Source: Hymenobacter artigasi
Lineage (GTDB): Bacteria > Bacteroidota > Bacteroidia > Cytophagales > Hymenobacteraceae
Assembly: GCF_012275535.1 (NCBI RefSeq)
Contig: NZ_JAAVTK010000008.1
Span: forward strand, 124,001 to 188,000
Reading direction: 5' to 3'
Length of the DNA stretch: 64,000 bases
The notes under the pieces: generated by a model
Told to the model about the DNA's origin: nothing
Database searches by the model: none
Seen by the model: only the letters and a program-made list of their open reading frames with translations
Program-made: the position numbers and the translations under genes
In this document: one piece after another, positions 23,457-42,177 of the stretch
Numbering within the stretch: position 1 is the first letter of the stretch
Layout of the letters: the number at the start of each line of letters is the position of its first letter

Positions 23457-23470
23457 TTGATTTTTATCAT
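23457..23470. promoter_or_regulatory. Single FNR-like palindrome between divergent USP and L,D-transpeptidase genes
   Basis: TTGAT-TTTT-ATCAT matches the classic FNR box (TTGAT-N4-ATCAA) except for the last base. It lies 84 bases from the start of the USP gene on one side and 120 bases from the L,D-transpeptidase start on the other. I see neither a second box at 22-23 bases nor a -7 element at the 33-base spacing seen at the other sites, so the direction of control is unclear. Confidence 0.6.
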
Positions 23471-29598: not shown

Positions 29599-30324
29599 TC
29601 AATGGCAGTCGAGTACCTGGCTGGGTTGGGAGCCGGCCGCCGCCGCCGGCGCCTGCAGCTGCGGGCTCATATAAGGAATGCCCAGCCCCAGCCCCCGCAC
29701 GATGAACAGCACCGCCAGCGCCGAGGCCGCGTAGGGCACCGCCCGGCGCAGCCGCCCGCGCCAAACCAGCGGCACCAACTGCCCGCTCAGCGAGAGGCCC
29801 AGCATGAGCGGCAGCGTGCCCAGCCCAAACAGGGCCATGTAGGCGGCCGCGCCCGCCACGCCCGGCGCGCTCAGTGCTCCGGCCAAAGCGAGGTACACCA
29901 GCCCGCAGGGCAGCAGGCCATTGAGCAGCCCCGTGGCAAACAGCGCCGGCCTGGAAGCCTGCTGAAACAGGCGGCCCAGCGTGGCTTTTACCCAGGCCAG
30001 CGGCCGCCCAAAACCGAGCCCATCGGCGAGCCGCGCCGTGTAGCGCTCCGGCACTGCCACCAGCAACAGAATCAGCACCCCCGAGGCAATGGACAGCCCC
30101 TGCTGCACCCCCGCCAGCCGCAGGCCCTGGCCCAGCAGGCCTGCGCCCGCGCCCAGTGTGGCGTAGGTGGTGGCCCGGCCCAGGTTATAGAGCAAGCGGC
30201 CGCCTACGTAGCGCAGCCGGCTGGCCCCCGCCGCCGGCCCGGGCAGCGCCAGCGCAATGGCCCCGCACATGCCCACGCAGTGGAAACTGCCCAGCAACCC
30301 AAATAAAAAGCCAGCCCAGAGCAT
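29599..30324 (-). CDS. Sulfite exporter TauE/SafE-family protein of the cbb3 cluster
   Basis: This 241-residue protein has about six membrane helices. It opens with the typical FLFGLLGSFHCVGMCGAIALAL and holds LLNGLLPCGLVYLALAGAL later, the two Cys/His-containing helices of the family. Members beside ccoN genes are thought to take part in copper or cofactor handling for the oxidase; that role is inferred from neighbourhood here. It lies between FixH (106 bases upstream) and a USP gene. The last residues (QVLDCH) carry a Cys-His pair at the C-terminus. Confidence 0.85.
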   Translation of the reverse strand: MLWAGFLFGLLGSFHCVGMCGAIALALPGPAAGASRLRYVGGRLLYNLGRATTYATLGAGAGLLGQGLRLAGVQQGLSIASGVLILLLVAVPERYTARLADGLGFGRPLAWVKATLGRLFQQASRPALFATGLLNGLLPCGLVYLALAGALSAPGVAGAAAYMALFGLGTLPLMLGLSLSGQLVPLVWRGRLRRAVPYAASALAVLFIVRGLGLGIPYMSPQLQAPAAAAGSQPSQVLDCH

Positions 30325-30430: not shown

Positions 30431-30895
30431 TCACCGAATAGTGAGTTCTTTTTCGAGGAAGTAGGCTTGGTTATTGGCCGTGAAATCGACCCGCACGCGC
30501 CAGTAGCCGGGCAGCAGTTGGGCGGTGTTGAACTGTTGCTGCGCGCCGGTTTGCAGCGGCAGGGTGAAATCCAATTTTTGGTCGGAAGGGCGGAAGAAGT
30601 GGATTTGGCCCTGCACCGGTTGGCTGGCCAGCGCGGGCGGGAGTTGCAGCGTGAGGCGCTGGGTGGCGGCCTCGTGGTGCAGCTGCACGGGCGCGGGCAG
30701 GGCGGCGGTGCGCGCCATCGATTCCATGCGCTGCTGGTAGGCCAGCTCCTGCTGGTAGTAGTCGGGGCTGACGAGGTCGACGGTGGTCCGCATGGCCTGC
30801 TGCACCATGAAGCCGATGTAGCCGGCGAAGAGCACGAACACGGCAATGATGGCGTAGGGCCAGATGGTGCGGGGTTTGGAGGGGGAGGTGACCAT
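30431..30895 (-). CDS. fixH: FixH family protein
   Basis: This 154-residue protein has one N-terminal membrane helix (YAIIAVFVLFAGYIGFMVQQA) followed by VDLVSPDYYQQELAYQQRM, the usual FixH/CcoH start, and a beta-sandwich-like periplasmic domain. FixH helps assemble the cbb3 oxidase, together with CcoI and CcoG. It is 155 bases downstream of ccoG on the same strand; the gap is filled by a large inverted repeat. Confidence 0.9.
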   Translation of the reverse strand: MVTSPSKPRTIWPYAIIAVFVLFAGYIGFMVQQAMRTTVDLVSPDYYQQELAYQQRMESMARTAALPAPVQLHHEAATQRLTLQLPPALASQPVQGQIHFFRPSDQKLDFTLPLQTGAQQQFNTAQLLPGYWRVRVDFTANNQAYFLEKELTIR

Positions 30896-31050: not shown

Positions 31051-32457
31051 TCACTGCACCGGCCCGAGAAACTTCGTGCTCGTCTCCGCAATCAGCTTTC
31101 CTTTACTGAACAGGCCGATGCGGATTTTCTGGTTGGTGTGGTGGAGGGCGGCGCGGGGCAGCTCGGCGAAAAACACGCCCTCGGCAATGCCCTGGGCGGG
31201 CAGGGTGAGCGTGGTGGTGCTGATGAGGGAAATGGTGCCCTGGGCCGGTTCCAGCAGGCGCAGGGTGAGGGGGTAGGGCTGGTTGGTCTTGTTGATGACC
31301 GAGATATTGTATAGGTTGGTGATGGTGCCGTGGTCGGTTTTCTGGAAGAGCTGGCCGGGCGTGCGCAGCACCGTGGCCGCCACGTTGGCCCGCGACACCA
31401 GCAGGCCGGTGAGCACAATCAGCAGGAAGGCCAGCACGCCGGAAAGGGCTTTCACGCGGCCGGTGAGGCGGAATTTGGTGCCCTCGGCAATGCCATTCAC
31501 GGAAGCGTGGCGGATGAGGCCCTGCGGCTTATTTATCAGGTCCATGATGTTGTTGCAGGCATCGATGCAGGCCGTGCAGTTGGTGCATTCGAGCTGGGTG
31601 GCGCCGTTGCGGATGTCGATGCCCGTGGGGCACACCTGCACGCACTGGTGGCAGTCGATGCAGTCGCCGGCGGTGCGGGTCTGGGTTTTGCGCAGCTTCT
31701 CGCGGGGCTCGCCGCGCTGGTAGTCGTAGGCTACCACAAGGCTGTCCTTATCGAGCAAAACGCCCTGCAAGCGGCCATACGGGCACACAATGGTGCACAC
31801 CTGCTCCCGAAAACGCGCAAACACCGCATAAAACAGGCCGGTGAACACCGTGAGCGCCGCCAGCCCGCCCAGGTGGGCCGTGGGCGCATCGGTCACAATC
31901 TTCATCAGCTCCTCGGTGCCGATGATGTAGGCCAGGAAAGTGTTGGCAATGATAAATGAGATGGCCAGAAACAGCGCATGCTTGGTGGTTTTGCGCCAGA
32001 GCTTATCCCAGTCCAGCTCGCGCCGGTCAAGGGCTTTTTGCTGGGGCGCGTCGCCCTCCAGCCAGTACTCGATGCGGCGGAACACCATCTCCAGAAAGAT
32101 GGTCTGGGGGCACACCCAGCCGCAAAATACCCGCCCGTACACGACGGTGAACACGATGATGAACACCAGAAACGTGAGCGTGGCCAGCAGCAGAATGAAG
32201 AAATCCTGGGGCCAGAAAATCTGCCCAAAAATGATGAAGCGCCGCGCTGGCAGGTTCAGCAGCAGCACCGGCAGGCCGTTGATGCGCAGCCACGGCCCGG
32301 CAAAGAGAAGCGCCAGAAAGCCGTAGCTCAGCGCCTTGCGGTAGCGGTAGAGGCGGCCGGCGGGCTTTTTGGGGTAGAGCCACACCCGCTCGCCCGCCGC
32401 GCCTATCGTGGAGAGCGAGTCGCGGTATGAGTCGTCGGGCTGGAAGGGGGTGGACAT
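31051..32457 (-). CDS. ccoG: Cytochrome c oxidase accessory protein CcoG (FixG/RdxA)
   Basis: This 468-residue membrane ferredoxin-like protein is involved in delivering copper to the cbb3 oxidase. It has about five membrane helices, the motif VFCGWVCPQTIFLE in the second loop, VCTIVCPYGRLQG, and two iron-sulfur cluster motifs: CIDCHQCVQVCPTG and CTNCTACIDAC. A C-terminal Ig-like domain (about 360-468) is periplasmic. Gene order ccoP-ccoG-fixH on one strand agrees with a cbb3 assembly operon. Confidence 0.95.
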   Translation of the reverse strand: MSTPFQPDDSYRDSLSTIGAAGERVWLYPKKPAGRLYRYRKALSYGFLALLFAGPWLRINGLPVLLLNLPARRFIIFGQIFWPQDFFILLLATLTFLVFIIVFTVVYGRVFCGWVCPQTIFLEMVFRRIEYWLEGDAPQQKALDRRELDWDKLWRKTTKHALFLAISFIIANTFLAYIIGTEELMKIVTDAPTAHLGGLAALTVFTGLFYAVFARFREQVCTIVCPYGRLQGVLLDKDSLVVAYDYQRGEPREKLRKTQTRTAGDCIDCHQCVQVCPTGIDIRNGATQLECTNCTACIDACNNIMDLINKPQGLIRHASVNGIAEGTKFRLTGRVKALSGVLAFLLIVLTGLLVSRANVAATVLRTPGQLFQKTDHGTITNLYNISVINKTNQPYPLTLRLLEPAQGTISLISTTTLTLPAQGIAEGVFFAELPRAALHHTNQKIRIGLFSKGKLIAETSTKFLGPVQ

Positions 32458-32630: not shown

Positions 32631-33509
32631 TTACAGCTTCGCCACCGCCTTCCCCACCGCTTCCTTCTCGCCCTGCGGTGGCTTGGCATTAGCCGGTTTC
32701 GTGCCTTGCAAACTCAGCACGTAAGAGCTGACCTGCAGAATCTGCTTGCCCGAGAGCTTGCCTTTCCAGGCTACCATGCCCTTGCCGTTGATGCCGAATT
32801 TGATGGTTTTGTAGATGTGGTTTACCTCGCCGCCGTGCAGCCAGAATTCGTCGGTCAGGTTGGGGCCGATTTTGCCCTCGCCGCTGGCCCCGTGGCAGGG
32901 AGCGCAGTTAGTAGCGAAAATGGCTTTGCCGCTGCTCAGCTCGGCCGGCACCAGCAGGGGCTGGTAGGTGGTGAGCAGGTTGGGGTCGTCGGGAGTGGCG
33001 GCGATGAGCAGGGCGGCCTGCTGCATCTCGGCGGCATATTCGGCCCCCTGCAGCTGGCCGGTTTTGAGAACGTGGTAGTAAGCGAGGTAGCCGACGGCGA
33101 AAATAATGGTGGCGTAGAAGCCGTACTTCCACCACGGCGGCAGGTCATTGTCGAACTCGTGGATGCCGTCGTAGTTATGGTCGAGCAGTTCGTCGCGCAC
33201 GTCGCCCTGCACCAGGCGGGCATCGCCCACCAGCAGGCCCAGCACGCGGCCGCTCCAGGTGTCGTGCACCAGGGGCAGGTCGTAGAGCTGGCGCAGCTGC
33301 GGCTTCATCTGCCGCGTGATGACGATGCCGGTGAGCAGCAGCACCAGCAGCAGCAGGCCCAGCAGGCTCAGCAGCAGCCAGAACAGTACTTCCTGCTCGC
33401 TCATGGCGGCGGCTTTGGCAGCGGGGGGCGCGTCGGGCGTTTGGGCGGCCGCCGCGTAGCCGCCGAGCAGGCCCGTGGCGAGTAGCAGCAGGGGGCGTTT
33501 GGTTAACAT
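32631..33509 (-). CDS. ccoP: cbb3-type cytochrome c oxidase subunit III, mono-haem form
   Basis: This 292-residue protein carries electrons to the oxidase. It has a signal-like start, a membrane helix (FWLLLSLLGLLLLVLLLTGIVI), then the typical CcoP N-terminal segment DGIHEFDNDLPPWWKYGFYATI with a second helix. The cytochrome c domain has a single haem motif CAPCHGASGEG (near residue 206) and a likely axial Met in NGKGMVAWKG. Classic CcoP has two CxxCH motifs; only one is present here, as in some Bacteroidota. Its first seven bases overlap the end of ccoQ. Confidence 0.93.
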   Translation of the reverse strand: MLTKRPLLLLATGLLGGYAAAAQTPDAPPAAKAAAMSEQEVLFWLLLSLLGLLLLVLLLTGIVITRQMKPQLRQLYDLPLVHDTWSGRVLGLLVGDARLVQGDVRDELLDHNYDGIHEFDNDLPPWWKYGFYATIIFAVGYLAYYHVLKTGQLQGAEYAAEMQQAALLIAATPDDPNLLTTYQPLLVPAELSSGKAIFATNCAPCHGASGEGKIGPNLTDEFWLHGGEVNHIYKTIKFGINGKGMVAWKGKLSGKQILQVSSYVLSLQGTKPANAKPPQGEKEAVGKAVAKL

Positions 33510-33709: not shown

Positions 33710-33791
33710 GTAGCGCGGACTTTGTAGTCCGCTAGTGAACAGGGTGAGAAGAATAGATGAGGGAACTCGCGGACTACAAAGTCCGCGCTAC
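33710..33791. repeat. Perfect 22-bp inverted repeat; arms contain TTTGTA-loop palindromes
   Basis: The arms (33710-33731 and 33770-33791) are exact complements. Each arm holds its own small palindrome GGAC-TTTGTA-GTCC. The right arm reaches four bases into ccoNO and supplies the stop codon of that gene (33788-33790). Confidence 0.95.
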
Positions 33792-35974
33792 TTTTTCACC
33801 TTGATGTCGGTGCCCAGGCGTTGCAGGTAGGCAATGAGCGCCACGATTTCGCGGTCCGATTTCACCTCGATGTCCTCCTTTTTCAGCTCGGCCACGATGC
33901 CCCGGGCCTGGCCCTGCGCATCGGCCACGGCCTGCTGGTCGAAGCCGGCGGGGTAGGGCGTATTCAGGCCCTGCAGCACCCGAATTTTGGCGGGCAGCGT
34001 GCTGTAGTCAATCGTGTTTTCGAACAGCCACGGATAGGGCGGCATAATGGAACCGGGCGACATGCTGGTGGGGTCCATCATGTGGTTGTAGTGCCAGGAG
34101 TTGGGGTATTTCTGGCCCACGCGCTGCAAATCGGGACCAGTGCGCTTGCTGCCCCACAGGAAGGGCCGGTCGTACACGTATTCGCCGGCTTTGCTGTATT
34201 CGCCGTAGCGCTCGGTTTCGGAGCGGAACGGGCGCACCATCTGGGTGTGGCAGTTCGAACAGCCTTCCTTGATGTAGAGGTCGCGGCCTTCTAGCTCGAG
34301 CGGCCGGTAGGGCTTCACCGAGGCAATGGTGGGTACGTTCGACTTCACCAGAAAGGTCGGAATCATCTCCACCGCGCCGCCGATGGCGATGGCCACCGTG
34401 GCGCCCACGGCCAGCTGGAAGGGCCGGCGCTCCAGCCAGCGGTGCCAGTGGCCGGCCTGCACGTGCGGGTCTTCGCTCTCGGGGCCGAGGGCCGGAGCCT
34501 GGGCCTTTTCATTCACCAGCAGCGTGCCGGCCTGGGCCGTTTTGTAGAGGTTGTACATCAGCAGAAACACGCCGCTGAGGTAAAGCACCCCGCCGATGCC
34601 GCGCAGGTAGTACATGGGCACCAGCTGAATCACAGTTTCGAGAAAGTTGGGGTATTGCAGCATGCCCTCGGCATTAAACTGCTTCCACATAAGCCCTTGC
34701 GTGAAGCCCGCCCAGTACATGGGAATGGCGTAGAAGAGGATGCCCAGCGTGCCCAGCCAGAAGTGCGTGGTGGCCAGTTTTTTGGAAAACAGCGGCGTTT
34801 TGTAGAGGCGCGGCCACAGCCAGTACAGCATCCCGAAGGTGAGGAAACCATTCCAGCCCAGGGCCCCGACGTGGACGTGCGCCACAATCCAGTCGGTGAA
34901 GTGGGCAATGGCATTCACGTTTTTCAGGCTGAGCATGGGGCCTTCGAACGTGGCCATGCCGTAGGCCGTGATGGCCACCACGAAGAACTTGAGCACGGGC
35001 TCCTCGCGCACTTTGTCCCAGGCGCCGCGCAGGGTGAGCAGGCCGTTTATCATGCCGCCCCAGCTCGGTGCAATCAGCATGATGCTGAAGGCCACGCCCA
35101 GGCTCTGGGCCCAGTCGGGCAGGGCGGTATAGAGCAAATGGTGCGGCCCGGCCCAGATGTAAATGAAAATCAGCGACCAGAAGTGAATGATGCTCAGGCG
35201 GTAGGAATACACCGGCCGCTCGGCCGCCTTGGGCAGGAAGTAGTACATCAGGCCCAGGTAGGGCGTGGTGAGGAAGAAGGCCACCGCGTTGTGGCCGTAC
35301 CACCACTGCACCAGGGCATCCTGCACGCCGGCGTAGGCCGAGTAGCTCTTCATCCAGCTCACGGGCACTTCGGCCGAGTTCACAAGGTGCAAAACGGCCA
35401 CCGTGATGAACGTGGCGATATAAAACCAGATGCCCACGTACAAATGCCGCTCGCGCCGCTTGGCAATGGTGCCAAACATATTCCAGCCAAACACCACCCA
35501 AATCACGGTAATGGCAATGTCAATCGGCCATTCCAGCTCGGCGTATTCTTTGCTCGTGGTGTAGCCCAGCGGCAGCGTGGCCACCGCCGACAGGATGATG
35601 AGCTGCCAGCCCCAGAAGTGGATTTTGCCAAGGACGTCGGAATACATCCGGGCCTTGCACAGGCGTTGCAGCGAGTAGTAAACGCCCGTAAAAATGCCGT
35701 TGCCGACGAAGGCGAAAATCACCGCGTTGGTGTGCAGCGGCCGGATGCGGCCGAAGGTGGTGTAGGCCGTGCCCATGTTCACCTCGGGCCGGGCCAGCTC
35801 GAAAGCGGCCAGCACACCCACCATCATGCCGATAATGCCCCAGATAACGGTGGCAATGCCGAAGTCGCGAACAATCTTGTTGTCGTAGAAAAAAGTCTCA
35901 ACGGCCCGGTTCACAACCCTGGGAATCAGGGGCGCTCGGGGAGCAGCAATGGGAGCTAGCGGTTCGGCCTGCAT
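33788..35974 (-). CDS. ccoNO: cbb3-type cytochrome c oxidase, fused subunits I and II
   Basis: This 728-residue protein combines CcoN (about 1-470) and CcoO (about 510-728), the high-affinity oxygen-reducing core. The CcoN part has twelve membrane helices and the haem- and copper-binding His motifs (for example [56 protein letters not shown]). The CcoO part has the haem c motif [12 protein letters not shown] and then [22 protein letters not shown]-like family sequence (seen as [17 protein letters not shown]). The fusion is common in Bacteroidota. Transcription probably starts near 35998 under paired-box site C. The stop codon lies inside an inverted repeat. Confidence 0.95.
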   Translation of the reverse strand: [728 protein letters not shown]

Positions 35975-36002: not shown

Positions 36003-36069
36003 CAAAGGTCCCGGCCGATTGTGTGGTGAAAGCTGACGAAAGTCAGGTGTGCGGGCTGATTGATGTCAG
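36003..36069 (-). promoter_or_regulatory. Paired FNR/CRP-like operator with promoter, site C (ccoNO)
   Basis: The proximal box is CTGAC-GAAA-GTCAG (36033-36046), a perfect palindrome. The distal box is CTGAT-TGAT-GTCAG (36056-36069); the centres are 23 bases apart. The -7-like element, GACCTTTG on the minus strand (36003-36010), is 33 bases from the proximal centre, placing that box near -41 relative to a start at about 35998. The distal box overlaps the last codons of ccoS. Confidence 0.8.
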
Positions 36070-36254: not shown

Positions 36255-38690
36255 TTAAAGCCCGCGCCGCCACGCGGCCAGCCGCACCAGCACCGTGGCA
36301 AACACCATCACGCTCAGCGAGCTGATGGGCATGAGAATGGCCGACACAATGGGCGTGAACCGGCCCTGCACCGCCAGCGTGAGCCCAACGCCGTTGTAGA
36401 CGAACGACAGCACGAACGTGGCCAGCACTATGCGCAGGCAGGCCCGCGAAAAGCCCAGCATGGTGGCCAGCTGCCCAAAATTGCCGGCTTCCAGAATGGC
36501 ATCGCAGGCGGGCGAGAAGTTGGTGAGCGTGTCGGTGAGGGCAATGCCGGCATCGGCGCGCTGAAGGGCCCCGGCGTCGTTCAGGCCGTCGCCCACCATC
36601 ACCACGGTGCGGCCCTGCTGCCGAAGCTGGGCCACGTAGTCGAGCTTGTTTTGCGGCGTTTGGCGGAAGTGGATTTCGGCCGCCGGGCCAAACAGCTCGC
36701 GCAGCCGGGCTTGCTCGGTGTCATTATCGCCCGAGAGCACGGCCAGGCGGTAGTGCCGGCCGAGCCTGGCCAGCACCGGCCGCAGGCTGTCGCGGTACAC
36801 GTTGCGGAAGGCGTAGTAGCCGCGCCAGTCATCATCCAGGCTGATGTACACGCGGGATTGCGGCGTGCCGGCCGCATCTTCGGTGGCTGCTGAAGTGCCG
36901 GCAAACGCGGCCGTGCCCACCCGCACCACTATGCCGGCTACGGTGCCGCACACGCCCTGGCCGGGCGTCTCGGCAAAGTCCGATACGGCCAGGGCGCTGG
37001 CCGGCAGTTCCGAGGCCAGGCGCTGGCTGAGCGGGTGCGTGGACTGGCGCACCACGGCCGCCACGGCCTGCTGCTGCCCGGGGCTGAGCAGCGGCCCCAC
37101 GTACTCGACCGCCGATTGTTTGACATCGGTGAGCGTGCCGGTCTTGTCGAATACGATGGTATCGGCGCGGCCCAGGGTTTCGACCACGGCCGAGTTTTTG
37201 AGGTAGAACTTACGCCGGCCCAGCACCCGCAGCGCGGCCCCCAGCGCAAACGGCGTGGCCAGCGACAGCGCGCACGGGCAGGCAATCACGAGCACCGACG
37301 TGAAGGCCCGCAGCGCCATCGCCGGGCTTTTGGGGTACCAGTAAATGGCCGCGCCCAGCGCCAACGTCAGCGTGAGGCCCACGAAGTAGCGGCCCACTTT
37401 GTCGGCGTAAGTTTCCAGCGAGGGCTGTTTTTCCTTCTGAAAAGCGGGGTTGTTCCAAAGCTGGGTGAGGTAGCCCTGCGACACTTCGCGCACCACTTCC
37501 AGCTCCACGGCCTCGCCCATTTGGCGGCCGCCGGCGTACAGCAGGTCGCCGGCCCGGCGGGCCACCGGCTCGCTCTCGCCCGATACAAAGCTGTAGTCAA
37601 TCTGGCCCGCGCCGCGCAGCAGCACGGCATCGGCCGGAATGATTTCCTGGTGCCGCACCCGGATGCGCTGCCCGGTTTTCAGCACCTTCACCGATACCGA
37701 TTCCTCGCCCGTGGGCGTGAGGCGCGTCACGGCCACGGGGAAGTAGGAGGTGAAGTCGCGGTCGAAGCGCAGGGCGTCGTAGCTGCGCTGCTGCACCCAT
37801 TTGCCAATGAGCATGAAGAACACCAGTCCCGTGAAGGAATCGAAATAGCCCGGCCCGCGCTGGGTCACAATTTCGACCACGCTGGTCGCAAACAGCGCCG
37901 TGAGGCCCAGGCTGATGGGGAAATCGAGGTTGATGTAGCGCTGCCGCAGCCCCTGCCAGGCCGAGCGGTAGAAGCCCCGCGCACTCACCAGCAGCACCGG
38001 CAGCGCCAGCAGCAAGCTCAGGATACCAAAAAACCGCCCAAACGTGCTTTGTAACTGCCCGGCGAAGGAAAAATACTCCGGAAAAGCCAGCAGCATCACA
38101 TTGCCGAAGCCGAAGGCCGCCACGCCCAATTGGTAGTACAGCGTGCGGCTGCCGGCGTGGGGCTGGGCACCCAGCTCGGCCAGCGTAATCTGCGGCTCGT
38201 AGCCCACTGCGGCCAGCAGCGTCACCACTTCCTTGAGTGTGGTGGTGGCGGGCTGGTAGCTCACCGTGAGCTCCTTGCGCAGGAAATTGACTCGCGACGA
38301 TGAAATGCCGGGGTTCAGCCTGAACAGGTTCTCCAGCAGCCAGATGCACGACGCGCAGTGCATTTGCGGAATGCTGAATGTGAGCCGCGCCAGCGTGGGC
38401 GAGCGGAAGGCCAGCAGCTGCGCCTGCACCGTTTCGGCGTCGAGGTAGTCGAAGCGGCCGGGCAGCTCCACGGCCTTGGTTTTTTGGCCGGGGTGCTCGT
38501 CGAGCCGGTAGTAGGTGCAGAGGCGGTTGGCGGCCAGCAGCTCGTACACGGCGCGGCAGCCCGCGCAGCAAAAGGTCAGCTCCGGCGCTGCCAGCAGGCG
38601 CAGGGGCGTATCGGGGCAGGCATCGCCGCAGTGCGTGCAGGCTACGCCAACGTGGGGCGGGGGTGGGGCAAGGGCAGGCGCGAGGGGCAC
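36255..38690 (-). CDS. ccoI: Copper-transporting P-type ATPase CcoI/FixI
   Basis: This 811-residue P1B-ATPase supplies copper for cbb3 oxidase assembly. The N-terminus has a Cys-rich segment (CTHCGDACPDTPLRLL, then FCCAGCRAVYELL), followed by a metal-binding domain with MHCASCIWLLENL. It then has membrane helices, the ion motif CPCALSLATP, the phosphorylation site DKTGTLTD and the hinge GDGLNDAGAL. The start is uncertain: no ATG fits, and the frame is open far upstream into a repeat. I chose the GTG at 38690, because the predicted transcription start from paired-box site B is near 38711. The TTG at 38714 would be too close to that start or upstream of it. Confidence 0.9.
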   Translation of the reverse strand: MPLAPALAPPPPHVGVACTHCGDACPDTPLRLLAAPELTFCCAGCRAVYELLAANRLCTYYRLDEHPGQKTKAVELPGRFDYLDAETVQAQLLAFRSPTLARLTFSIPQMHCASCIWLLENLFRLNPGISSSRVNFLRKELTVSYQPATTTLKEVVTLLAAVGYEPQITLAELGAQPHAGSRTLYYQLGVAAFGFGNVMLLAFPEYFSFAGQLQSTFGRFFGILSLLLALPVLLVSARGFYRSAWQGLRQRYINLDFPISLGLTALFATSVVEIVTQRGPGYFDSFTGLVFFMLIGKWVQQRSYDALRFDRDFTSYFPVAVTRLTPTGEESVSVKVLKTGQRIRVRHQEIIPADAVLLRGAGQIDYSFVSGESEPVARRAGDLLYAGGRQMGEAVELEVVREVSQGYLTQLWNNPAFQKEKQPSLETYADKVGRYFVGLTLTLALGAAIYWYPKSPAMALRAFTSVLVIACPCALSLATPFALGAALRVLGRRKFYLKNSAVVETLGRADTIVFDKTGTLTDVKQSAVEYVGPLLSPGQQQAVAAVVRQSTHPLSQRLASELPASALAVSDFAETPGQGVCGTVAGIVVRVGTAAFAGTSAATEDAAGTPQSRVYISLDDDWRGYYAFRNVYRDSLRPVLARLGRHYRLAVLSGDNDTEQARLRELFGPAAEIHFRQTPQNKLDYVAQLRQQGRTVVMVGDGLNDAGALQRADAGIALTDTLTNFSPACDAILEAGNFGQLATMLGFSRACLRIVLATFVLSFVYNGVGLTLAVQGRFTPIVSAILMPISSLSVMVFATVLVRLAAWRRGL

Positions 38691-38717
38691 AGGCAAAGGG
38701 AGGGCTGATGGCAACCC

Positions 38718-38783
38718 CAAAGCTCCGGCCCCGCGCCAGCCCCCCGGCTGATGAATGTCAGCCAACAACCTGATTAATCTCAG
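38718..38783 (-). promoter_or_regulatory. Paired FNR/CRP-like operator with promoter, site B (ccoI-ccoS)
   Basis: The proximal box is CTGAT-GAAT-GTCAG (38748-38761), extended to GGCTGA/TCAGCC. The distal box is CTGAT-TAAT-CTCAG (38770-38783); the centres are 22 bases apart. The -7-like element, GAGCTTTG on the minus strand (38718-38725), is again exactly 33 bases from the proximal centre. Confidence 0.8.
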
Positions 38784-38815: not shown

Positions 38816-38947
38816 GCTCTTTCGGAGTTGTACTCCGAAAGTGGGCCTGCCGGGGACTTGCAGTCCCCACGCACGGCGCGGCATTCCTCACATAGGGGGC
38901 TACAAGCCCCCGGCAGGGTGGCTTTCGGAGTACAACTCCGAAAGAGC
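38816..38947. repeat. Compound hairpin element with TTGTA/TTGCA loops
   Basis: The outer 26-base arms (38816-38841 and 38922-38947) are exact complements, each itself a palindrome CTTTCGGAG-TTGTA-CTCCGAAAG or its reverse. Between them lie GGGGAC-TTGCA-GTCCCC and GGGGGC-TACAA-GCCCCC (TTGTA on the other strand), joined by matching CCTGCCGGGG and CCCCCGGCAGG. Stems differ in sequence while the loop is kept. It lies in the 349-base gap between the receiver-CRP gene and ccoI. Confidence 0.9.
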
Positions 38948-39039
38948 GTCGCGCAAAAATGCCCCTCACGCCCGAGCCGCAGGCTCGAAGCCAGTCGGCA
39001 CGCGTCGCAGACGCGCGCCAGCGCACTCATTGAGCGTGT

Positions 39040-40095
39040 TTACCAGTTAGGCTGGCGCAGCTTTTCGGGCTGCAGTAGCCGGATGCCGTGACTGCTCAGT
39101 TCAATCAAACCGCTCTGCTTGAACTCGCTCAGGGTGCGGATGAGCGACTCCGTGGCGGTGCCCACCACGGCGGCCAGGTCATCGCGCGAGAGCTGGATGA
39201 CGGCCTCCGGCGTGGCCCCGGCCTGCTCGTGCAGGCGCAGCAGGGCATCGGCCACACGCCGCCGAATGGAGCCGTAGGCCATGCCCAGCAGCTGCTCCTC
39301 GCGCGTGCTCACCCGCCCCGCCAGCAGGCGCACAAACTGCTGGCCCACGGCCGCGTTGCGGTGCAGCAGCGTTCTGAAATCGTCCTTCGGGATGTAGAGC
39401 AGCGTGGCATCGTCGAGCACCAGGGCGGTGTCGGCGTGCGGGCCCGGCTCCAGCAGCGGCAGGTAGCCGAAGAACTCGCCGGGGCCATACACGCCCGTTA
39501 TCAGCTCCTTGCCGCCGGGGTTGCGGCGCACGGTTTTCACGCGGCCGGTTTGCACGAAGTACAGGCGCGTGGGCTCGTCGCCTTCGGCGTACACTTCCTG
39601 TTTTTTGCGCAGCGCGTGCGGGCGGCGGTCGGTGGTGAGGTCGTGGAGCTGGCCGGCGGCGGCGGCATCGTCCAGAAAGTTGCCCAGGCCCTCGGGGGCG
39701 CGCAGGTCGTAGTCGGGCTGCAGCTGGCGGAAGCGGTTGAGGCGGCTGCTGATGGCGCTCAGCAGCTCGGTTTCCTCAAAGGGTTTGGTGAGGTAGTCGT
39801 CGGCGCCCAGCTCCATGCCCCGGCGCTGGTCGGTGCGCTCGGTTTTGGCGGTGAGGAAGATAAACGGCACGCCCGCCAGCTGCGGGTTCTGGGTGAAGAT
39901 GTGCAGCACGCCGTAGCCATCCAGCACGGGCATCATAATATCGCACACCACCAAATCGGGCTTGGTGGCCAGGGCCTGCTCCACACCGACTTTGCCGTTT
40001 TCGGCCGTGAGCACGGCGTAGCCGGCCAGCTCCAGAATCTCGGCCGTGTTTTCGCGGATAATGTCGTTGTCCTCAATCAGCAGAATGGTTTTCAT
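39040..40095 (-). CDS. Receiver domain fused to CRP/FNR-type regulator
   Basis: This 351-residue transcription factor joins a two-component receiver (about 1-120; acidic pair Glu8/Asp9, phospho-acceptor Asp52, Lys104 in TKPFEE) to a cyclic-nucleotide-binding-like domain (about 145-265) and a CRP-type winged helix (about 275-345). The binding pocket lacks the usual Arg for cAMP, and the only Cys is next to Asp52, so there is no FNR-type iron-sulfur cluster. The recognition helix reads ESLIR at 316-320, against E-x-x-S-R in FNR. It overlaps the histidine kinase gene by 23 bases, so the kinase is very likely its partner. It is the best candidate for binding the paired boxes of this island. Confidence 0.93.
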   Translation of the reverse strand: MKTILLIEDNDIIRENTAEILELAGYAVLTAENGKVGVEQALATKPDLVVCDIMMPVLDGYGVLHIFTQNPQLAGVPFIFLTAKTERTDQRRGMELGADDYLTKPFEETELLSAISSRLNRFRQLQPDYDLRAPEGLGNFLDDAAAAGQLHDLTTDRRPHALRKKQEVYAEGDEPTRLYFVQTGRVKTVRRNPGGKELITGVYGPGEFFGYLPLLEPGPHADTALVLDDATLLYIPKDDFRTLLHRNAAVGQQFVRLLAGRVSTREEQLLGMAYGSIRRRVADALLRLHEQAGATPEAVIQLSRDDLAAVVGTATESLIRTLSEFKQSGLIELSSHGIRLLQPEKLRQPNW

Positions 40096-41683
40096 AGGGA
40101 ATGGTAATGGTGACGGTGGTGCCCACGCTCAGCTCGCTGTGCAGCGAAATGGCACCGCCCATCAGCTCCAGGTATTTGGAAATGATGTAGAGGCCCAGGC
40201 CGGTGCCGGGGGTGTTGGCCACGTTGCGCGCCCGGTAAAAGCGCTGGAACAGATGCTCCTGGTCTTCGGGCGAAATGCCCACGCCCTGGTCCTGCACGCG
40301 CAGCGTGAGCAAGCCGGCCTGGCCGGTGGCACTCAGCCCGACGGTGGTGTTTTCGCCGGAATATTTCAGCGCGTTGGAAAGCAGGTTGACGAGGATTTTG
40401 CGCAGCAGCGAAGCATCGAGCCACACCATTTCGGGGCCGTCGGCGCTTAGCTCGATGTGCTGGCCGGGCCGGCGCAGGCCCTGCACTTCGGCCACGGCCT
40501 CGCGCAGCAGGGCAGGCACGGCCAGGTGGGCCGGGTGGGCTTCAATCTTGCCCTCCTCAATTTTGCCCACCGACAGAAACTCCTCCAGAATATCAGTCAA
40601 ATGCTTCACCGAGGCCCGGATGCGGCCCAGATGGCGCAGGCGCTGGGGCTGCTGCTCGGCGGCCGGGTACTTTTCGACCAGCGTGGCCGAGGTGAGCACG
40701 GCCGTGAGCGGCGTGCGGAACTCGTGCGAGGCCATGGCCACGAAGCGCGACTTGAGCTCGCCCAGCTCCTGCTCGGCGGCCAGGGCCTTGGTCAGTTCCA
40801 CGGAGCGGCGCTCCAGCTGGGCCAGCGTGGTCATCAGGGCGTGGGTGCGGTCGGCCACCTTCTGTTCCAGCTCGGCATTGAGGCGGTCCACGCGCTGGCG
40901 CTCGGCCTGCAGGTTCTGCTCGGCCTCCTGCTTGGCGCTGATATCGACCACGTAAGCCACCACGTACAGCTCCTCATCCAGATGAAAATAGCTCAGGCTG
41001 ATTTCGACTGGAAACACCGAGCCGTCGCGGCGGCGGGCCAGCAGTGCCCGGTTCGAGCCCATGGCCCGCACCGAGGGGTGTGCGTTGAAGGACTCGCGCA
41101 GGTGCTCGTGGCGCCCGCGCACGGCATCGGGCACCAACACCTCAATGGGCTGGTCTGCCAGCGCGCCCGCCGGGTAGCCGAAGAGCTGATGCGATTTTTC
41201 GTTGGCCAGCACGATATGGCCCTGCCGGGTAGCCACGATGATGCCGATGGTGGCGTGGGTGAACACGGCCTCGAAGCGCCGCACGCTCTGGGCCAGGCTG
41301 CGCTCGGCCTCGTGCAGGCGGCCGGTATCGGTGAGGCGCACCAGGAAGTAGGGCTTGCCGTCGAGGGCCAGGCTGGTGAGCTCCAGGTTGGCCCAGAAGG
41401 GGCGGCCCGCGTGCCGGCGGATTTCCACTTCCCGCGCGTAGTGCCCCACGGCCAGGGTTTCATCGCGCACCTGCTCCCACTCGGCCGGGCTGAGGGGCGG
41501 CAGCAACAGGGTACGCACGGGGTCGTCGTACAGGGCCTGGGCCGACGGGTAGCCCAGCAGGCGGTAGCCGGCCGTGTTCACGCGGGTAAACCAGGCCGCG
41601 TTCACATCATACAGGCCCACAAAGTTGCTGGCCTGCTCAAACAGAATGTCGGTGAGCGGGTTGCGGTAAAAGTCGACGGGCAT
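40073..41683 (-). CDS. PAS-domain sensor histidine kinase
   Basis: This 536-residue soluble kinase has no membrane helices. It has two PAS domains (about 12-125 and 135-250), a coiled-coil linker (about 252-310), the phospho-acceptor helix with His320 in MASHEFRTPL, and an ATPase domain with NLLSNALKYS, DQGVGISPED and GTGLGLYIIS. The second PAS ends RAMGSNRALLARRRDGSVFPVEISL, a general PAS pattern; the haem-binding His of FixL is not at the matching position, so it is not an obvious oxygen-binding FixL. The signal is unknown but should be intracellular. It overlaps the receiver-CRP gene. Confidence 0.93.
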   Translation of the reverse strand: MPVDFYRNPLTDILFEQASNFVGLYDVNAAWFTRVNTAGYRLLGYPSAQALYDDPVRTLLLPPLSPAEWEQVRDETLAVGHYAREVEIRRHAGRPFWANLELTSLALDGKPYFLVRLTDTGRLHEAERSLAQSVRRFEAVFTHATIGIIVATRQGHIVLANEKSHQLFGYPAGALADQPIEVLVPDAVRGRHEHLRESFNAHPSVRAMGSNRALLARRRDGSVFPVEISLSYFHLDEELYVVAYVVDISAKQEAEQNLQAERQRVDRLNAELEQKVADRTHALMTTLAQLERRSVELTKALAAEQELGELKSRFVAMASHEFRTPLTAVLTSATLVEKYPAAEQQPQRLRHLGRIRASVKHLTDILEEFLSVGKIEEGKIEAHPAHLAVPALLREAVAEVQGLRRPGQHIELSADGPEMVWLDASLLRKILVNLLSNALKYSGENTTVGLSATGQAGLLTLRVQDQGVGISPEDQEHLFQRFYRARNVANTPGTGLGLYIISKYLELMGGAISLHSELSVGTTVTITIPYENHSAD

Positions 41684-41736: not shown

Positions 41737-41803
41737 CTGACGCATGTCAGGGCTTCGGCCTGACGGCTGTCATGTCCGGGCCTCCGGGGGCCGGCTAATT
41801 TTG
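41737..41803 (+). promoter_or_regulatory. Paired FNR/CRP-like operator with promoter, site A (thioredoxin-like gene)
   Basis: The distal box is CTGAC-GCAT-GTCAG (41737-41750), a perfect palindrome. The proximal box is CTGAC-GGCT-GTCAT (41760-41773); the centres are 23 bases apart. A perfect -7 element TAATTTTG (41796-41803) is 33 bases from the proximal centre. The distal box is also only 54 bases upstream of the divergent histidine kinase start, so autoregulation is possible, although no matching -7 element is visible on that strand. Confidence 0.8.
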
Positions 41804-41838: not shown

Positions 41839-42177
41839 ATGACTGGCCTTCAGGCTGTTGAGTATGAGCGTCCGGCGGCGGCCGTGCTGCTGGTGATGCT
41901 GCCGCTGGCGGCCCGGTACCCCCTGGCTCAGCCCCAGGGCGTTTTCGCGGCCGCCCTCGCCACCCTGCAAAGCCAGCTGGGGCCCGCCGTGCGGGTGCTG
42001 CAAATTGATGAGGCCAGCTACCCCGCCATCATGAGCAGCTTTGCGCCGGCCCAGCTGCCCGCCAGCGTGCTCATGCACCACGGCGTAGAGCTTTGGTGCT
42101 GCTCCGGCCTGCCCGACGCGGCCGAAATCGACGCGCTGCTGGTGGGGAAGAACGGTGGGGCAGGGGCAACCCGCTAG
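41839..42177 (+). CDS. Thioredoxin-like fold protein without CxxC
   Basis: This 112-residue protein reads like the thioredoxin fold: strand AAVLLVMLPL, helix, then VRVLQIDEASYPAIMSSF, the cis-Pro region LPASVLMHHGVELW, and a final helix DAAEIDALLV. There is no CxxC in the usual place; two Cys occur together later (WCCSG). A redox or binding role is therefore only a guess. Its leader is about 29 bases from the start predicted by the paired-box promoter, which ties it to the regulator locus. Confidence 0.6.
   Translation: MTGLQAVEYERPAAAVLLVMLPLAARYPLAQPQGVFAAALATLQSQLGPAVRVLQIDEASYPAIMSSFAPAQLPASVLMHHGVELWCCSGLPDAAEIDALLVGKNGGAGATR

Follow-up and report, generated by a model that had tools for sequence, protein, structure and literature searches.

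A two-component system encoded in the cbb3 (cco) island of Hymenobacter artigasi probably constitutes a FixL-like oxygen circuit in which a single protein, a receiver fused to a CRP-type regulator (REC-CRP), replaces both FixJ and FixK and drives the cbb3 genes at low O2. The window, i.e. the whole 64-kb stretch analysed (C8:124001-188000), belongs to a 5.5-Mb genome; its relevant genes, boxes and promoter elements are listed in Table 1.

Table 1. Genes, boxes and promoter elements of the cco island and the adjoining kinase–regulator pair (window coordinates)
Feature	Position	Strand	Basis of assignment
DsbD_2 cytochrome c biogenesis protein	29599..30324	-	domain
ccoH (FixH)	30431..30895	-	domain
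ccoG (FixG_C)	31051..32457	-	domains
ccoP (FixP_N + cytochrome c)	32631..33509	-	domains
Fused ccoN-ccoO (COX1 + FixO)	33788..35974	-	domains
-7-like element of ccoNO promoter, GACCTTTG	36003..36010	-	
Proximal ccoNO-promoter box CTGACTTTCGTCAG	36034..36045	-	
Distal ccoNO-promoter box CTGACATCAATCAG, 23 bp upstream of proximal	36057..36068	-	
ccoS-like protein, 58 aa	36066..36242	-	sequence and place
ccoI-type metal ATPase (E1-E2_ATPase, HMA, ATPase-cat_bd); start codon uncertain	36255..38714	-	named by domains and place
-7-like element of ccoI promoter, GAGCTTTG	38718..38725	-	
Proximal ccoI-promoter box CTGACATTCATCAG	38749..38760	-	
Imperfect second ccoI box CTGAGATTAATCAG, 22 bp upstream of proximal	38771..38782	-	
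REC-CRP response regulator, Asp52, helix E316-S-L-I319-R320	39040..40095	-	Pfam domains, alignment, AlphaFold2
Two-PAS histidine kinase, PAS2 FixL-like	40073..41683	-	domains, PDB comparison, alignment
Kinase-promoter box CTGACATGCGTCAG, read on kinase strand	41738..41749	-	
Box CTGACGGCTGTCAT, 23 bp from the kinase-promoter box	41761..41772	+	
Small thioredoxin-fold protein without CxxC, 112 aa, divergent from kinase	41839..42177	+	

A receiver–CRP fusion and its FixL-like partner kinase

The regulator gene encodes a 351-residue protein with Pfam matches to Response_reg (residues 4–115), cNMP_binding (161–247) and HTH_Crp_2 (280–348). Its N-terminal part displays the acidic residues, acceptor Asp, Thr/Ser and Lys that characterise response regulators: D9, D52 and K104 are invariant and T82 is nearly so among 20 aligned rows, and Asp52 is kept in 82 of 82 aligned regulators, the one in the window included. 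The remainder of the protein displays the features of the CRP/FNR superfamily, a cNMP-binding fold followed by HTH_Crp. PDB and fold matches agree with this assignment, the CRP part being matched by the FixK2 structure 4i2o and by FNR structures, and the best fold matches of the AlphaFold2 model (mean pLDDT 85, pTM 0.49) being CRP structures. In this model, a helix spanning residues 315–327 holds the E316-S-L-I319-R320 motif of the recognition helix (T-E316-S317-L318-I319-R320). In NCBIfam, the top matches (the best 25 of 108 and of 88 families) score far under the cut-offs.

The ligand sites of CRP and FNR are missing. In an alignment with Mycobacterium tuberculosis CRP, Tyr and His occupy the positions that we take to be those of the cAMP-pocket Glu and Arg, which sets the protein apart from cAMP-dependent CRPs, and Cys51, inside the receiver, is the sole cysteine, which leaves none of the four-Cys 4Fe-4S arrangement of FNR. 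The preliminary description of this gene, a receiver with acceptor Asp52 joined to a CRP fold that lacks the cAMP pocket and the FNR cluster, carries the helix E316-S-L-I319-R320 and is overlapped by the gene of a partner kinase, is confirmed as an observation; its interpretation is partly supported, as detailed below. The resemblance of the kinase to FixL, the geometry of the promoters and the thioredoxin-fold partner had escaped that description.

The kinase open reading frame ends inside the start of the regulator gene, at position 40073, so that the two genes share 23 bp. The kinase has the architecture PAS-PAS-HisKA-HATPase_c, the second PAS domain being recognised by Pfam and the first being visible in matches to DosP. 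When its N-terminal 255 residues are compared with the PDB, seven of the best eight matches are FixL. More specifically, His192 and Arg212 align, with no gap between them, with the FixL residues that we take to be the heme-ligand His and the distal Arg, so that the sequence combines a FixL-type PAS domain (proximal His, distal Arg) with HisKA and HATPase_c. The second PAS domain is therefore FixL-like and contains a putative heme site. Across loci, and with the reference row subtracted, 61 of 70 kinase homologues with a letter at the position have the His and 43 of 71 have the Arg, these counts being drawn from 77 kinase matches, some of which are partial or lie far from a regulator.

FixL binds heme and O2, and O2 inhibits its kinase activity. 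The kinase in the window could instead sense a signal other than O2 (redox state, quinone or another small molecule) with a second PAS domain that does not bind heme, a reading to which we give appreciable but clearly lesser weight. The FixL likeness is one of sequence only, and the distal position is occupied by Leu, Met, Gly or another residue in part of the family; FixL-like PAS motifs are also found in PAS proteins of unknown ligand. Yet FixL is the best PDB match, and among the 30 PAS_9 domains read in this genome (out of 33 matched; the kinase in the window was judged by its FixL PDB alignment) both heme-site residues occur only in the two kinases linked to REC-CRP proteins, which favours an O2-sensing role.

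Another question is whether the receiver controls DNA binding. The CRP fold might bind an unknown ligand or be always active, phosphorylation playing no part: its cNMP-binding part, being intact, might accommodate a different ligand, and the phosphorylation switch put forward in the preliminary description is itself deduced. We nevertheless regard this alternative as unlikely in view of the conserved catalytic residues of the receiver, the absence of the cAMP-pocket Glu and Arg, and the presence of a kinase gene within 400 bp of the regulator gene in 71 of 82 discovery loci. Control by phosphorylation from the adjacent kinase is the reading retained hereafter.

Full-length relatives of the REC-CRP fusion were found in 43 of 296 sampled Bacteroidota genomes, representing 33 of 139 genera. 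Six plasmid records that contain the fusion call it just 'response regulator' or 'transcriptional regulator'. A 299,298-bp plasmid of Hymenobacter swuensis (NZ_CP007144.1) carries the genes of the kinase and of the REC-CRP protein; contig G110:C2 (locus L145), of equal length and with the regulator at the corresponding place, contains ccoNO as well. The module can thus be plasmid-borne.

The kinase gene is flanked by a divergent gene for a small thioredoxin-fold protein, which shares the box-bearing region with it. Of 133 kinase-bearing loci, 90 have a homologue at the corresponding divergent position, within the genus Hymenobacter and in Spirosoma and not in more distant loci; one also accompanies the paralogous pair on contig C15 of this genome (L109:6960-7253). 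None of 93 homologues contains a CxxC motif. The predicted structure of the 112-residue protein, of low confidence (pLDDT 68), matches thioredoxins. A feedback role, suggested by analogy with FixT, an inhibitor of FixL, or a docking role is only a guess for this protein.

Boxes and promoter geometry in the cco island

The kinase–regulator pair lies next to a ccoI-type gene, a gene that is presumably ccoS, judging from its sequence and place, and ccoNO, ccoP, ccoG and ccoH; coproporphyrinogen oxidase and universal-stress-protein genes are found nearby. The pair thus sits, as proposed initially, inside its likely regulon, among boxes that it would recognise. Association of the regulator with cbb3 genes extends to the genus. 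In a survey of 120 genomes, with thresholds of E 1e-60 for the regulator and E 1e-100 for ccoNO, the former was detected in 89 genomes and the latter in 65; all 65 ccoNO genomes contain the regulator and none of the 31 regulator-less genomes contains ccoNO (Fisher p = 5e-14). A short inverted repeat of the TTTCGGAGTTGTACTCCGAAAG type was also observed between the regulator and ccoI genes (window 38820-38950).

The box pattern TGAYNNNNRTCA occurs eight times in the window for 1.25 expected, a number reached in none of 100 shuffles. In the whole genome it is found 196 times, the reversed pattern 90 times. Genome-wide, CTGAYNNNNRTCAG is found 14 times versus 4, four of the 14 lying in the cco island, and TTGAYNNNNRTCAA 10 times versus 4, none of them in the window. 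Likewise, 126 kb of sequence upstream of the query genes of the 82 discovery loci contain 154 boxes versus two control matches. The boxes tend to come in tandem with a fixed spacing: of 73 pairs of neighbouring boxes, 72 show a distance of 22 or 23 bp (72 of 72 on recount). The TGA of the distal ccoN box doubles as the stop codon of the ccoS-like gene.

The boxes also stand in a constant position relative to a promoter element. The Bacteroidota -7 element is TAnnTTTG, which the elements of the ccoNO promoter (GACCTTTG) and of the ccoI promoter (GAGCTTTG) resemble. In Ile-type promoters (see below), TTTG lies 33 bp from the centre of the gene-proximal box in 28 of 31 cases for ccoNO and in 35 of 35 for ccoI. 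Genome-wide, a box followed by TTTG at 26–28 nt is found 12 times versus two control matches, three of the 12 being in the cco island. This geometry places the proximal box at about -41 from the predicted start. Class II CRP/FNR activators bind boxes whose centre lies at about -41 to -42 relative to the transcription start; the proximal box would accordingly occupy a class II-like position, from which the regulator would activate transcription.

The kinase side is less regular, a distance of 33 bp between box centre and TTTG being found in 10 of 46 cases. Since the divergent thioredoxin-fold gene shares the upstream region of the kinase gene, the distal kinase box, which is often A..G in both classes of loci described below, may serve that gene. 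In the window, the 41761..41772 box stands 27 nt before the TTTG of TAATTTTG (41796-41803), in the direction of the thioredoxin-fold gene. A TTTG at 32–34 bp, on the strand that leads away from the kinase, was found in 21 of 52 Ile-type and 5 of 31 Ser-type loci, a weak test of this assignment.

Covariation between residue 319 and the first base of the boxes

The first base of the boxes had been described as variable within the island. This is not the case in the ccoNO, ccoI and kinase promoters: of the ten half-sites in their five strict boxes, nine begin with C and one with A; the variation noticed earlier came mainly from three further boxes of the window, at 23458, 25094 and 27246. Most half-sites of these three begin with A or T, and the first two boxes lie near universal-stress-protein and L,D-transpeptidase genes; a different member of the regulator family may recognise them.

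Residue 319, which precedes the Arg of the recognition helix, is Ile in 93, Ser in 42 and Val in 2 of 137 REC-CRP proteins. We compared it with the first base of half-sites located 20–130 bp upstream of the projected starts of the kinase, ccoNO or ccoI genes; C and T were scored, A and G were not, and the two Val-type regulators and a truncated one were left out. In the discovery set, half-sites of Ile-type loci display 117 C and 8 T, those of Ser-type loci 6 C and 28 T. The prediction, set beforehand, was then borne out in a held-out set that includes close relatives of discovery loci and is thus not fully independent: 125 C and 7 T for Ile, 12 C and 25 T for Ser (p = 7e-15). This set comprises 58 loci (60 fetched, two exact copies dropped) and yielded 88 sites from 35 Ile-type loci and 25 sites from 15 Ser-type loci. 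Taken alone, held-out ccoI promoters do not discriminate between the classes (Ile, 37 C and 0 T; Ser, 3 C and 1 T; p = 0.1). When both sets are counted by locus, 58 Ile-type loci have a C majority and none a T majority, with five ties, and 19 Ser-type loci have a T majority and none a C majority, with ten ties, among which is the Ser-type locus of this genome. The Jensen-Shannon divergence between the two classes is 0.305 at base 1 and at most 0.053 at any other position (T2-G3-A4 are fixed by the pattern). An unconstrained base 1 is consequently rejected: C predominates there in Ile-type loci, and T in Ser-type ones. Of the earlier idea that the altered helix relaxes the reading of base 1, the link between the substitution and this base stands, but Ile does not free the base, which is mostly C.

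At the level of whole genomes, the agreement is partial. The cco promoters are C-type in nine of nine genomes listed as having Ile-type regulators only (in one of them, G115, there is a further regulator match, with an unread helix); in these genomes, the regulator gene is on another contig or more than 100 kb from the cco genes in six cases, and 12–21 kb away in three. Among the five genomes with Ser-type regulators only, G061 and G085 have T-type boxes, G079 and G087 have mixed CTGA..TCAA boxes and G032 has C-type cco boxes. Genomes G101, G017 (two copies) and G080 possess both types of regulator, with the Ser type adjoining the cco genes: their ccoNO promoters are T-type and their ccoI promoters C-type. 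G074, where the Ser type adjoins cco and the Ile type lies elsewhere, lacks a strict ccoNO box, and its ccoI box is of the C/G kind. Thus, the prediction made for cco promoters held except in G032, G074, G079 and G087 and at the ccoI promoters of G101, G017 and G080. Note that loci L188, L190, L191, L196 and L198 form a Ser subclade with the helix ESLSRILSELR and asymmetric cco boxes, CTGA..CAAATCAA.

The association is compatible with two interpretations. In the first, residue 319 would set the base 1 preference (Ile for C, Ser for T), although Ser at this position does not appear to be an absolute determinant: in preliminary assays (PMC4505428), a Pseudomonas putida FNR that has Cys in place of the Ser was still able to bind a TTGAT box. 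In the second, to which we ascribe a somewhat lower but considerable probability, the association reflects lineage history, boxes having drifted along with regulator clades without residue 319 reading base 1. The phylogeny bears on both. A 50-row tree has four changes at residue 319 and the best trees four or five (the short regulators L075, L083 and L084 were left out of one tree); no single-change tree appears among 200 bootstrap trees, which speaks against a purely historical origin. A single origin of Ser is nonetheless not rejected by the AU test (p-AU 0.064), no more than one change is required when only branches with strong support are considered, and at most two independent Ser/Ile pairs can be drawn from the tree. 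The p value of 0.064 and the single forced change mean that the covariation may rest on few events, as the historical interpretation would have it. This interpretation also accommodates the exceptions noted above (G032, G074 and, in genomes with both regulator types, the ccoI promoters) and the fact that many other residues separate single clades. On the other hand, within the recognition helix residue 319 is the only one that parts both larger Ser clades from the Ile group (with the proviso that it helped define the groups), and base 1 is the only box position that changes strongly. That Ile or Ser determines the reading of C or T, arose more than once and insulates paralogous FixL–REC-CRP circuits within the genus is, in our judgement, a proposal standing slightly below an even chance. 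Given the contrary genomes and the AU result, we place more confidence in the regulatory circuit than in a causal role for residue 319.

The preliminary description had also pointed to a better-matching CRP/FNR paralogue as a threat to its assignment. This threat is partly real, as the genome encodes two other CRP-fold proteins with FNR-type helices, a second REC-CRP protein on contig C15 (E-S-L-S-R) and a stand-alone regulator on contig C4 (E-T-V-S-R); by the genus-wide pattern, both would be expected to match C-type boxes less well (the boxes of the C15 locus are themselves mixed). That locus (L109, G000:C15:18401-38400) contains a kinase paired with a REC-CRP protein whose helix is Ser-type, a thioredoxin-fold gene of its own and two boxes in which the first bases are mixed; no match to cbb3 genes was found in the 20 kb read. 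The C4-type paralogue, detected in 58 of 120 genomes (E 1e-60), does not follow the cbb3 genes: it is present in 28 of 65 genomes with ccoNO and in 30 of 55 without (p = 0.27). Either protein could bind the TGA-N6-TCA core through its E-x-x-S-R helix, in which case the fused regulator would be a mere neighbour of the cco genes. We consider this improbable, since the C4 type, as counted at this threshold without its more distant members, shows no association with ccoNO, the cco boxes are C-type in a genome with two Ser-type proteins, and the box base mostly tracks the type of the REC-CRP regulator. The fused regulator is hence the preferred reader of the cco boxes.

Proposed circuit and its relation to known systems

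In the circuit that we favour, the FixL-like kinase would autophosphorylate when O2 falls and would phosphorylate Asp52 of the fused receiver. A dimer of the phosphorylated regulator would then bind the tandem CTGAY-N4-RTCAG boxes, as suggested by their location and by the covariation, and would activate transcription from the proximal box at the class II-like position. It would thereby switch on ccoNOPGH and ccoI-S, and probably its own operon together with the gene of the thioredoxin-fold partner. The base preference associated with residue 319 would keep paralogous REC-CRP circuits partly insulated from one another.

The output of FixJ is a LuxR-type HTH and the recognition helix of FixK is E-x-x-S-R. 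The regulator studied here corresponds to neither: its output is cNMP_binding plus HTH_Crp_2, it has a fused receiver, which a stand-alone FixK does not, despite the absence of cluster cysteines, and its E-S-L-I-R helix goes with CTGA..TCAG boxes, its Ser-type relatives being closer to FixK in this respect. Compared to FNR and FixK2, it shares the CRP fold and an E-x-x-x-R recognition helix but differs by the Ile that replaces Ser before the Arg, by its N-terminal receiver and, in the case of FNR, by the lack of cluster cysteines.

The FixL-FixJ-FixK cascade of Rhizobiales and Caulobacterales, as outlined in one account (PMC4999443), has cbb3 targets, TTGA..TCAA boxes and, in some species, self-feedback. 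The present system resembles it in having a FixL-like PAS kinase, a CRP/FNR regulator without iron-sulfur cysteines, cbb3 genes and TGA-N6-TCA boxes. It differs from it by the absence of a separate FixJ step, the receiver being fused to the CRP fold with an HTH_Crp output, and by its CTGA..TCAG boxes, its -7-like Bacteroidota promoter element and the thioredoxin-fold partner gene. In the hFixL-FxkR-FixKf pathway of Rhizobium etli and relatives, described in that same account (PMC4999443), the response regulator is likewise a protein distinct from the CRP-type one. Both pathways comprise a FixL-type kinase, a response regulator and a CRP-type output, but the last two, distinct proteins in R. 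etli, form one protein here. In a literature search that covered mostly open-access journals, none of the titles and abstracts found describes this REC-CRP fusion or its boxes, which falls short of a proof of novelty.

If the proposed circuit is correct, Bacteroidota would possess a FixL-dependent O2 circuit in which the kinase acts directly on the CRP-type activator of the cbb3 genes, a pathway shorter than the textbook cascade. The covariation of Ile or Ser with C or T would then provide a natural and testable case of change in DNA specificity within the CRP/FNR family, and it also bears on how duplicated regulators may become insulated.
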